A stretch of DNA of 64,000 nt, from NCBI RefSeq assembly GCF_000266945.1, contig NC_018025.1, positions 248,001-312,000 of the forward strand, given 5' to 3'. This DNA is from Desulfomonile tiedjei DSM 6799 (GTDB taxonomy: Bacteria > Desulfobacterota > Desulfomonilia > Desulfomonilales > Desulfomonilaceae). The notes beneath the pieces were generated by a model that was not told the DNA's origin, ran no database searches, and saw only the letters and a list, made by a program, of their open reading frames with translations. The position numbers and the translations under genes are program-made. Below are positions 3,578-55,288 of this stretch, one piece after another. Position 1 is the stretch's first letter, and each line of letters starts with the position of its first letter.

Positions 3578-3751
3578 CATAGACGCTAATTTGATCCAAT
3601 TCTTTGTCCCAAAGGGACAAAAGAAAATAGCCCGGTAATTCATTGCCGGGAATTTGTGTATCAGCCGTCCCTCCGGGACTCGAAAATCATTAGATTTTTC
3701 CTTAACCGGCGATGAATCGCCGGCCTATTTTCAATTGTTCCTCCGGAACAA
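3578..3751. repeat. Modular stem-loop array, copy 1
   Basis: A string of short palindromes separated by A/T-rich spacers: GTCCCAAAGGGAC, CCCGGTAATTCATTGCCGGG, GTCCCTCCGGGAC, CCGGCGATGAATCGCCGG and GTTCCTCCGGAAC. The same modules occur in reverse order and orientation at 32077-32255, including the flanking ATAGACGCTA. The function is unknown; hairpins of this kind could act on transcript ends or be REP-like mobile units. Confidence 0.8.
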
Positions 3752-6971: not shown

Positions 6972-7240
6972 GTTACAGTCATTGCCGAAATAGATGACCG
7001 AAACTCAGTGCAGATGTTATAGCTGTTATCGAAAGTCTTGACGGAATCCAATGCCTGCAATGGGAAGAATCAGTAGCGCCGGCGTCCCTGCCGGCGATAA
7101 CTTATTGCTTTGTTTGGTGAATTGTTCGCCGGCACGGAGGCCGGCGCTACCAATTGCTGGGAACTGCTCTTCACAATCCGTGATTACTTTCGAGAATCGG
7201 TATAGTCGGAAAAAACCCCCTGACCCTCATATACCCTAAA
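6972..7240. repeat. Repeat R3, copy 1, interrupted by MITE-A
   Basis: Bases 6972-7019 and 7203-7240 together match, in reverse complement, the uninterrupted sequence at 21718-21796 (shared core CCGAAACTCAGTGCAGATGT followed by TAGTCG and a run of A then C). The 183 bp MITE-A sits exactly at the TA in the middle of the repeat. The copy at 21.7 kb is therefore an empty-site control for this insertion. Confidence 0.8.
7020..7202 (+). mobile_element. MITE-like element A, copy 1 (183 bp, TA-flanked)
   Basis: A 183 bp element with imperfect terminal inverted repeats (TAGCTGTTATCGAAAGT at one end, ACTTTCGAGAATCGGTA at the other) and flanking TA dinucleotides (7018-7019, 7203-7204). The centre holds two GC-rich stem-loops (GCCGGCGTCCCTGCCGGC and GCCGGCACGGAGGCCGGC). 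The copy at 34579-34761 has the same length and differs at a single base by my reading. Its right end (GAATCGGTA) is shared with element B, so both are probably moved by the same IS630/Tc1-like transposase supplied in trans. Confidence 0.85.
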
Positions 7241-8485: not shown

Positions 8486-8529
8486 GTGAAACTCCTTATA
8501 CTGATTTGCATTCCAAAGAGATAAAATCT

Positions 8530-8709
8530 GGGAAACACTTCTTGCCAAGAAGGGTTTCCCAGACCCTTCCCAAGAACTTTTAATATTCGTCCAAGACCAT
8601 AGTTTTTCTCTCGAAAAAACTATGGTCTTGGGCGAGTGCTAAAAGTTTTTTGGAGGGTTCGGGAACCCTCTTTACAAAAAAGGTTCCCGTATGTTACTGC
8701 TTTGAAAGC
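8530..8709. repeat. Long hairpin element, copy A (intact)
   Basis: A 180 bp element made of three nested or adjacent stem-loops: GGGAAACACTTCTT/AAGAAGGGTTTCCC (8530-8560), a very long imperfect stem whose inner arms are CCAAGACCATAGTTTTTC (8591-8608) and its complement (8613-8631), and GGGAACC/GGTTCCC around TTTACAAAA (8661-8688). It ends in TTACTGCTTTGAAAGC. It fills the gap upstream of the hydrolase and downstream of the sigma-54 activator gene. Related copies are at 29265-29337 (short), 34409-34800 and 54129-54483. Confidence 0.85.
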
Positions 8710-8869
8710 ACATCGGTATTACCGAGCATTTCAAAGAACTCATACTGCTGTTAGTTATGGAAAAAATCAAGGAAGACCGTCTTCAGAAGGACCAAATCAA
8801 GAAGAATGAACATTGGAGTTTGGCCTTCTGTATGAGGTCCGGCAGATTGAGGGAACCATACCCCAAGAA

Positions 8870-28270: not shown

Positions 28271-29281
28271 ATGTCTGAAGTGCAATCATCCAAATTTCAA
28301 CCGCAGTCTCCTGTTATAAGCATTGTGATTCCCCTTTACAGGGAAGAAAAGAATGTAGTGCCTCTCGTGGACAGAATAGGGCAAGTCATGGCTCCTCTGG
28401 GTTATCTGTGGGAAATTGTGTTTGCCCTGGACCCGAGCCCCGATCGGACTCGCGAAGTCATTATGGACCTTATTGCCCAGGGGAATCCGATTCGGCTTCT
28501 CACTTTTTCCCGGAGGATAGGAAAGCCTCTTTCTCTCATCGCAGGGCTGGATCACGCCGTAGGAGACGCTTGCGTGATCATTGATGCAGATCTCCAGGAT
28601 CCACCCGAACTCATTGGCGAAATGATACAGAAATGGAAGCAGGGGTACCAGGTAGTATTGGCGCAACGCACTTCAAGAAAAGGCGAGAACTTTCTGTATT
28701 TGAAGGCGGCTCAAGCTTTCTACCGCATTCTGGAAAAGATCTCCGAGGTCCCGGTTCCGAGAGACACGGGCGATTACCGTTTACTGGATGCAAGAGTAGT
28801 CAAGGAACTCTCCACTTTCCGAGAACGGCATGGATTTCTGAGGGGCCTCACTGCGGCAGTCGGATTCAAAACTACGGTAATCCCTTATGAACGTGAGCCT
28901 CGATACTCGGGCAAAACGCAAATCAGCTTTGCAGGAGCGTTCGATATTGCATTAGACGGCATTGTACCTTTTTCGCGCGTACCTGTCCGTTTACTTCTCT
29001 TCACCGGCGCGAGCCTGGCGGTGATTGCGATGGTTCTTGCTCTTCTGTGGATAATTCTCGGGGTTCTGACAGGATTCTCAGACAAATGGCCCTTTGTTGC
29101 CCTCGGGCTGCTGATAACGGAACTGTCGGGGATAGTGCTTACAGGAATGGGTATCCTGGGAGAGTACCTCGTACGATCCTATGAAGAAACGCGTGACAGA
29201 CCATTGTACATTATCGATACCCTTGAAGAATCAGCAGGCCTGCCGCGGAAAGGACCCGATAATACACAATCAAAACAGTAA
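28271..29281 (+). CDS. Polyprenyl-phosphate glycosyltransferase (GT2, DPM/GtrB/ArnC-like)
   Basis: A membrane-anchored family-2 glycosyltransferase of 336 residues. The start at 28271 is taken because the GT-A fold begins a few residues later (VISIVIPLYREEKNV); an earlier ATG at 28157 would add 38 unlikely residues. The nucleotide-sugar site is DADLQDPPELI, and the acceptor region is RDTGDYRLLD. Two membrane helices near the C-terminus (LLFTGASLAVIAMVLALL and LGLLITELSGIVLTGMGILG) match enzymes that transfer a sugar to undecaprenyl phosphate for LPS or glycan modification. Its last codons are part of an inverted repeat shared with the downstream intergenic DNA. Confidence 0.88.
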   Translation: MSEVQSSKFQPQSPVISIVIPLYREEKNVVPLVDRIGQVMAPLGYLWEIVFALDPSPDRTREVIMDLIAQGNPIRLLTFSRRIGKPLSLIAGLDHAVGDACVIIDADLQDPPELIGEMIQKWKQGYQVVLAQRTSRKGENFLYLKAAQAFYRILEKISEVPVPRDTGDYRLLDARVVKELSTFRERHGFLRGLTAAVGFKTTVIPYEREPRYSGKTQISFAGAFDIALDGIVPFSRVPVRLLLFTGASLAVIAMVLALLWIILGVLTGFSDKWPFVALGLLITELSGIVLTGMGILGEYLVRSYEETRDRPLYIIDTLEESAGLPRKGPDNTQSKQ

Positions 29282-29337
29282 GATCGCTGGAACCTTTTTG
29301 TAAAAAGGTTCCCAGCGATCTTACTGTTTTGATTGTG
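29265..29337. repeat. Long hairpin element, short copy D, overlapping the end of the glycosyltransferase gene
   Basis: A near-perfect palindrome with arms of about 35 bases: CACAATCAAAACAGTAAGAT at the left is mirrored by ATCTTACTGTTTTGATTGTG at the right, and the centre is GGAACCTTTTTGTAAAAAGGTTCC. The stop codon of the glycosyltransferase lies in the left arm. The stem-loop with its T run should act as a bidirectional terminator. The central hairpin is shared with copies A, B and C. Confidence 0.85.
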
Positions 29338-29353
29338 CATCGAGAGGAAAGGT

Positions 29354-34396: not shown

Positions 34397-34408
34397 GATT
34401 TCATGCAA

Positions 34409-34800
34409 TTCGCTTTCAAAGAAGTAACACTTGAGGAACCTTTTTTACAAAAAAGGTTCCTCAAACTCCTCCAAAAAACTTTTAACACTGGTTTAAATCA
34501 TGGTTTTTCTATGAAAAAACCATGATTTAAACCCAATGCTAAAAGTTCTTGGGAAGGGGTTTGGGGAAACACTTCTTATAGCTGTTATCGAAAGTCTTGA
34601 CGGAATCCAATGCCTGCAATGGGAAGAATCAGTAGCGCCGGCGTCCCTGTCGGCGATAACTTATTGCTTTGTTTGGTGAATTGTTCGCCGGCACGGAGGC
34701 CGGCGCTACCAATTGCTGGGAACTGCTCTTCACAATCCGTGATTACTTTCGAGAATCGGTATACAAGAAGGGTTTCCCCAGTGTTACTGCTTGAAAGCGA
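34409..34800. repeat. Long hairpin element, copy B, interrupted by MITE-A
   Basis: Inverted relative to copy A. It runs from TCGCTTTCAAAGAAGTAACAC (34409) through GGAACCTTTTTTACAAAAAAGGTTCC, the long stem with inner arms GGTTTAAATCATGGTTTTTC (34490-34509) and their complement (34513-34533), to GGGAAACACTTCT, where MITE-A is inserted, and resumes with CAAGAAGGGTTTCCCC and GTGTTACTGCTTGAAAGCGA. The outer ends are inverted repeats of each other. The insertion splits the hairpin that in copies A and C is intact. Confidence 0.85.
34579..34761 (+). mobile_element. MITE-like element A, copy 2, inserted in a hairpin loop
   Basis: 183 bp, identical to 7020-7202 except for one base (CTGTCGGC here, CTGCCGGC there), flanked by TA at 34577-34578 and 34762-34763. 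It lies in the loop of the CACTTCTT/AAGAAGGG hairpin of the long hairpin element. Near-identity shows that the element moved recently, since the other repeats in this window are much more diverged. Confidence 0.88.
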
Positions 34801-34807
34801 ATTCACG

Positions 34808-34847
34808 TAAAAAACGGGGAAGCTCCGGTCATAAGAGCTTCTCCGTC
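34808..34847 (-). terminator. Rho-independent terminator of the CODH/ACS operon
   Basis: On the minus strand ACGGAGAAGCTC and GAGCTTCCCCGT form a 12-bp stem around TTATGACCG, directly followed by TTTTTT. It lies 30 bases beyond the stop codon of acsE, so it should end the acs transcript. Confidence 0.85.
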
Positions 34848-54128: not shown

Positions 54129-54483
54129 GCAATTGATGCTTCGCAGCCAAAGAAGTAAAACCCGGGAAACCCTTCTTGGTAAGAAGTGTTTCCCGAGCCC
54201 TTCCCAAGAACTTCTAATATTCGTTTAATTATACCGATTCGCTTTTTGTTTTATAATCTGGCAGGCTGGAGGTATCCTTCGCTCCGGACGACGCAAAGCC
54301 GTCTAATCACTCCGCTCAGAACACCTCAGCCTGCGCTATCTTATATGCATAATTGCGAAATAGTATTAGTTATTTTTTCAATGGAAAAAATAACTAATTA
54401 AACGAGTGTTAAAAGTTTTTTGGAGGGTTTGGGAACCTTTTTTACAAAAAAGGTTCCCTGATCTTACTGCTTTGAAAGCGAAG
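54129..54483. repeat. Long hairpin element, copy C, interrupted by MITE-B
   Basis: Same order as copy A: GGGAAACCCTTCTT/AAGAAGTGTTTCCC (54166-54196), then the long stem with inner arms CGTTTAATTAGTTATTTTTTC, cut in two by MITE-B (54232-54366), and its complement (54384-54404), then GGAACCTTTTTTACAAAAAAGGTTCC, ending TTACTGCTTTGAAAGCGAAG. The right arm contains the stop codon of tatD; the left arm (AATTGATGCTTCGC...AAAGAAGTAA) is a diverged mirror of the end of tatD. Confidence 0.85.
54232..54366 (+). mobile_element. MITE-like element B, copy 2, inserted in a hairpin stem
   Basis: 135 bp, starting TACCGATTCGC and ending GCGAAATAGTAT, flanked by TA (54230-54231 and 54367-54368). Removing the element and one TA restores CGTTTAATTAGTTATT, the exact complement of the opposite arm of the hairpin. 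This confirms a TA target duplication. The opposite-orientation copy is at 3791-3925. Confidence 0.88.
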
Positions 54484-55288
54484 CATCAACTGCGAGACCG
54501 AAGAAGTGCCGGGCGTTTGTGGTGGTTAATTCGCACACGGATTCGTACGGGATACCGAGGACTTCTGCCACTTTTTTCGCCGTATAGACGATATTAGCCG
54601 GTTCGTTGTCTTTTCCCCGGAGCGGTTCGGGCGAGAGAAACGGGCAATCAGTTTCGAGGAGGATACGTTCTTTGGGGCACTTCTGGGCTATGGATCTGAG
54701 CGCATCGTTTTTCTTGTACGTGACAGTTCCCGGGATAGAAATGTGAAAACCCAAAGCTACTGCTCGATCCGCGTCGGCCTGAGTGCCTGAAAAGCAGTGA
54801 ATGACGCCTCCTGCCGGATACGGTGCGGATCTCTCGAGTATCTCCAGCCCTTCTCGATACGCGTCTCTCAGATGTATAACAACCGGTTTTCCCAGGTTTT
54901 TGGCCAGGCTCAATTGTTCTTCGAAGATTCGAATCTGTATGTCCCGGGGTGAATGATTTCTAAAGAAATCAAGTCCGATTTCACCATATCCCACTACCTT
55001 CGGGTGTTTCGCGTAGATTTCCATCTGTGACAAGCCGGCAGCCGCGGCTTCTTTCGCGTTGTGCGGATGAAAACCTACACAGGCGTACACATGAGGAAAC
55101 CGTTCTGCCACATTCAATGCTCGTTCAACATCCTCTAGATCGATTCCTACAGTCACGATGGCTACGATCCCGGCCGAAACCGCATTGGCAACGACTTGCT
55201 CGCATCTTCCGAAGAGAGGGTCCAATTCCAGATGCGCATGAGTATCCACGAGCATCGGTTTCGATGTAGTTTTTCCAGAATGTATCAT
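54464..55288 (-). CDS. TatD-family metal-dependent hydrolase/DNase
   Basis: A 274-residue TIM-barrel metallohydrolase; TatD enzymes are 3'-5' exonucleases for DNA repair and possibly RNA. Metal ligands are in VDTHAHLELD, the Glu of GYGEIGLDFFRNHSP, the His residues in PVVIHLRDAY and VIHCFSGTQ, and the Asp of LLETDCPFLSPEP. The start follows AAGGATTATTGA. The last four codons (LSKQ and stop) belong to the end of a repeat element, so the C-terminus may have been altered by it. Confidence 0.92.
   Translation of the reverse strand: MIHSGKTTSKPMLVDTHAHLELDPLFGRCEQVVANAVSAGIVAIVTVGIDLEDVERALNVAERFPHVYACVGFHPHNAKEAAAAGLSQMEIYAKHPKVVGYGEIGLDFFRNHSPRDIQIRIFEEQLSLAKNLGKPVVIHLRDAYREGLEILERSAPYPAGGVIHCFSGTQADADRAVALGFHISIPGTVTYKKNDALRSIAQKCPKERILLETDCPFLSPEPLRGKDNEPANIVYTAKKVAEVLGIPYESVCELTTTNARHFFGLAVDASLSKQ

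Follow-up and report, generated by a model that had tools for sequence, protein, structure and literature searches.

The repeat carried as copies A, B and C in the window (the whole stretch of 64,000 nucleotides of Desulfomonile tiedjei DSM 6799 DNA analysed here) is a group of non-autonomous DNA transposons (MITEs). It is a quasi-palindrome of hairpins, in which the apex of the central stem is probably kept matched by template switching from one arm to the other at the time of replication.

The element is about 220 bp long and folds as a cloverleaf, in which a 42-bp central stem is accompanied by a terminal stem and two conserved hairpins. From the outside in, it has terminal inverted repeats (TAC..ATTCGC / GCGAAT..GTA), the terminal stem (TCAAAG / CTTTGA), hairpin 1, the 42-pair central stem, hairpin 2 and the other end. 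Copy A folds at -94.4 kcal/mol compared with -45.6 +/- 4.1 kcal/mol for 200 shuffles. The sequence-only reading had described a hairpin repeat with covarying arms at three places in the window. Copies A, B and C were found at these places, and each of the inner arms that it quoted was found with its complement on the opposite side. The outlines of the copies were revised as follows. Copy A was located correctly at 8530-8709, but the element occupies 8499-8718 and has a TTA duplication on each side. Copy B is present, but lies on the minus strand relative to copy A and has its hairpin 1 split by a 187-bp repeat. Copy C is present, but its left arm is broken by another MITE, which has a TTA duplication of its own. 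The features are listed below.

8496..8498, no strand: target duplication TTA left of copy A, read in the sequence (TNA/TNA rule over 52 copies)
8499..8718, plus strand: copy A, whole MITE, with ends TACTGATTTGC ... GCACATCGGTA
8527..8563, plus strand: hairpin 1 of copy A, in which the tip is inverted compared with the consensus of the family
8564..8657, plus strand: central stem of copy A, the outer part conserved and imperfect, the apex variable and matched
8589..8602, plus strand: variable inner left arm of copy A
8620..8633, plus strand: variable inner right arm of copy A
8660..8689, plus strand: hairpin 2 of copy A
8719..8721, no strand: target duplication TTA right of copy A
34404..34812, minus strand: copy B, split by the nested repeat, outer ends approximate
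34490..34533, minus strand: variable apex of copy B, with arms 34490-34503 and 34520-34533
34577..34763, no strand: 187-bp repeat splitting hairpin 1 of copy B (second copy at 7018-7204)
54134..54494, plus strand: copy C with its nested MITE, outer ends approximate
54232..54365, plus strand: MITE nested in the left arm of copy C, with TTA at 54229-54231 and 54366-54368, read in the sequence
54391..54404, plus strand: inner right arm of copy C, variable (the left arm consists of 54222-54231 and 54369-54372)

The two window copies of the 187-bp repeat (7018-7204 and 34577-34763) are nearly identical and have TACCGATT-like ends. An interior similar to that of the MITE nested in copy C was found in L130.

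We assign the repeat to the MITE group because it has inverted ends, a 3-bp TNA duplication, shorter relatives with the same ends, and nesting of elements (copy C has a MITE within one arm, and hairpin 1 of copy B contains the 187-bp repeat). The target duplication was tested on the 52 copies with both ends readable, out of 115 in the set. TNA was present on both sides in 38 of the 52, and the two 3-mers were identical in 28 of these 38. When the flanking 3-mers were shuffled, a mean of 10 and a maximum of 21 of the 52 were identical. A search for an exact end pattern gave 15 occurrences in the own genome and 79 in the sister Desulfomonile genome; the reversed control gave 0 in both. The shorter relatives have a single hairpin. 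A single-hairpin relative at 29259-29351 of the window has hairpin-2-like content and a ATCAAAACAGTAAG terminal stem.

Mobility of such a MITE would need a transposase acting in trans. No partner was found among the PF13340 and PF01609 families of the own genome: there were no matches to the PF13340 transposase, and the two multi-copy PF01609 IS families have ends that differ from those of the MITE. An IS with a 466-aa transposase was first suspected as the partner because it adjoins related repeats. It was ruled out on its ends (CAATGCTG...CAGCATTG) and its insertion into a GGCCGG palindrome. This 1514-bp IS was located inside the palindrome in 14 of 14 copies inspected (L143, L144, L146, L148, L150, L152, L154, L156 and L158-L163), mostly within the 187-bp repeat that is also present in the window, and it duplicates about 11 bp.

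Using copy A as the query, 43 copies were read after merging in the own 6.5 Mb, two-contig Desulfomonile genome. The search gave 79-80 match rows, many of which were both strands of one palindrome. The count of copies leaves out seven rows below 80 bits and the partial copy L121, as weak or partial, and takes the two halves of copy C as one. The sister genome (G001) had 72 distinct matches, many of them partial; 20 misreads of the automatic parser were dropped, 13 were unparsed and 39 were kept, a few of which are apparently still misread. Matches were also present in five further genera of the family (G002, G004, G006, G008 and G011). Among the 41 genomes searched, 7 were positive, the own genome included, and the repeat was absent from 11 other genomes of the same family and from 23 genomes of another family. 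At L048 and L060 in G004, which belongs to another genus, a related stem seems to surround a longer multi-hairpin insert and not a simple apex. Neither this repeat nor a bacterial MITE with arms matched by template switching was found described in the open-licence PMC literature.

That the two arms covary between copies, as the sequence-only reading proposed, was confirmed, strongly only in the central-stem apex. At the inner 12 pairs of the 43 own copies, 493 of 516 positions were Watson-Crick, whereas 2000 shuffles of the right arms between copies averaged 264 and never exceeded 316. For this count the insert nested in copy C was skipped, and the arms of four copies were read by hand. There were 35 distinct left 12-mers among the 43 copies. 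Averaged over 40 copies (3 partial own copies were left out), identity between copies was 83% and 80% in the left and right flanking parts and 51% in the inner arms. RNAalifold, run on 36 of the 43 copies, gave both-side changes at 21 of 57 pairs, located in the central-stem apex (17), the outer central stem (2) and hairpin 2 (2), with none in hairpin 1. At the apex pairs up to 22 of the 36 sequences were altered on both sides, with few breaks. In the sister genome the apex pairs less well (on average 10.3 of 12 pairs, over 39 reads that include a few misreads), which speaks against templated correction. Paired change of the same style was seen by eye in another genus (L211, L203, L207, L208 and L216).

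The other stems of the same element served as internal controls. Changes in 15 closely related copies were scored against their own consensus, the apex being the 20 innermost pairs. The 300 pair-cells of the apex contained 17 double changes that keep pairing, 4 pair-breaking singles and 7 pairing-restoring singles. Doubles and pair-breaking singles numbered 2 and 6 in the outer central stem, 0 and 8 in the terminal stem, 0 and 12 in hairpin 1, and 2 and 15 in hairpin 2. Thus the terminal stem and the two hairpins had 2 Watson-Crick doubles against 35 breaking singles in 567 cells. If the arms of the apex changed independently, and as often per base as the other stems (33 of 1058 bases in 14 copies), 0.09 doubles would be expected; L020, in which hairpin 1 is replaced, was left out of the calculation. 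The 17 doubles are not independent events, since two paired changes are common to L018 and L019 by descent. Hypermutation of the apex was considered and rejected. Set against 28 changes at 448 unpaired sites lying outside the loop, the 17 paired changes in 300 pair-cells call for no raised rate within this subfamily. Independent drift of the arms, which the earlier reading had set against its own proposal, was found in the terminal stem and in hairpins 1 and 2, and not in the central stem, which was the one that this reading had described.

The sequence-only reading had offered two causes for the matched arms, namely selection for the structure, as RNA or DNA, and template switching that repairs one arm from its partner. 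This interpretation was partly supported. Selection for an RNA was not supported. Template switching is the better supported cause, through the concentration of paired changes in the apex, the rewritten arms and two inverted tips. During replication past the long central hairpin, the strand being synthesised would switch its template to the opposite arm. Any point mutation in an arm would then be erased or copied across, so that the pair would evolve as one unit, and long rewritten arms and inverted tips would be the traces of single large events. The matched apex looks like such templated correction from arm to arm (quasipalindrome template switching). In L021, about 19 nt of the right outer arm, one indel included, are complementary to the left-arm consensus. 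L036 has the reverse direction: its left arm agrees with the right arm of the same copy over 18 nt, and other copies differ there at 4-5 sites. These two are the copies, among the 43 of the own genome, in which an arm was rewritten from the opposite arm at several sites together. The tip of hairpin 1 could be read in 37 own-genome copies and is inverted in two of them, W_8503 and L041. Step intermediates were found in the sister genome, where a C.A mismatch is common to L071, L079 and L066, and the same pair is changed but paired in L070_919. Inversion of the central loop was rejected as proof of template switching, as the possible tetraloop inversion of L015 departs from the consensus at two sites only. 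In the outer central stem the same non-paired sites are kept in most copies, so correction generally does not reach that far. Among the loci of the sister genome, one insertion site was found that the two Desulfomonile genomes, of two species, have in common (L037:2009-2208 and L092:3340-3550). The elements there are opposite in orientation and their arms differ; this intergenic site could reflect inversion in place or two insertions at one spot.

Selection for pairing of the DNA in mobile source elements is a real rival, which may operate alongside templated correction. An element could then move only if its central hairpin paired, as a DNA cruciform or when the transposase assembles, and only compensated source elements would yield copies, with no need for templated repair. 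Most paired changes are specific to one copy and later singles look neutral, the hairpins and ends are conserved in sequence, and the two paired changes shared by L018 and L019 indicate that lineages exist, all of which agrees with this explanation. The clusters of 4-5 paired changes in L018, L019, L021 and L022 could likewise have been built by selection in source elements and not in place. However, L018 would need four or five double substitutions among its 12 pairs and next to no other change, and the indel-bearing rewritten arm of L021 and the inverted tips are left unexplained. We regard selection acting alone as less likely than templated correction.

It is doubtful that every transposition cycle rewrites the apex, as might happen if a hairpin intermediate were copied by folding back. 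A new copy would in that case leave with a freshly matched and often altered stem, which would be a self-renewing palindromic tag.

An element transcribed at gene ends, with the stem retained as an RNA terminator, stabiliser or RNA end, is improbable. The fold is very stable, and the copies insert mostly at gene 3' ends. By crude ORF calls and a manual tally, the 43 copies comprised 14 convergent, 23 tandem and 3 divergent sites and 3 overlapped by a short ORF (104-109 aa, apparently accidental). Against this, promoter avoidance would produce the same placement, which fits loss of promoter-hitting insertions as well as any gene-end function. Orientation to the flanking genes at the 23 tandem sites (14 same, 9 opposite) showed no significant bias, and the other stems of the same copies decay one-sidedly. 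The single changes away from Watson-Crick pairing did not favour wobble pairs: 11 were of G-U type and 22 of A-C type, opposite to the preference for G-U intermediates that selection on an RNA of this strand would give. In Rfam no match to the element was found in the window at gathering scores, and permissive matches to copy A were far under the cut-off. Rfam also gave an Acido-Lenti-1 RNA match at window 3605-3650 on the minus strand, with 38 bits against a cut-off of 37, in this Desulfomonile genome. Exchange of whole apex hairpins among elements by gene conversion, with the arms matched by descent, is very improbable: the arm GTCTGAGTTGTTG is common to L019_2404, L034 and L043, whose flanks differ, but with 35 distinct left 12-mers in 43 copies swapping cannot be the source of the variety.

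When a stem shows paired changes, this is usually read as proving a functional RNA; here such changes were found in dispersed copies of a transposon. Since the other stems of the same copies drift freely, covariation alone would mislead RNA-gene finders. The stem changes its letters quickly with its two sides matched, most likely by copying of one side from the other in DNA replication.

REP/BIME, ERIC and similar sequences are intergenic palindromes often located at gene 3' ends. The present element resembles them in being palindromic and intergenic and in this location, and differs in sequence and size, in its target duplications and in its TAC...GTA ends. Like bacterial MITEs with a 3-bp TNA duplication, it is short, has no ORF, has inverted ends and the TNA duplication, and occurs as dispersed intergenic copies with nesting. 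Such MITEs have IS5/IS1031-like ends. Unlike them, the present element forms a hairpin cloverleaf with a variable, self-matching central stem, and its partner transposase was not found. Quasipalindrome or template-switch mutation (PMC7202029, PMC8604942 and PMC8794818) likewise leaves homogenised arms, inverted loops or tips and several paired changes together. PMC8794818 proposes that template switching creates and maintains stems, gives multiple paired changes and inverted loops as its traces, and terms the evidence for stem maintenance circumstantial. Here, in contrast to those systems, many dispersed copies of one transposon are present in one genome and its other stems are internal controls. 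A family with dozens of young copies makes the maintenance of stems by template switching, as proposed in PMC8794818, directly testable.
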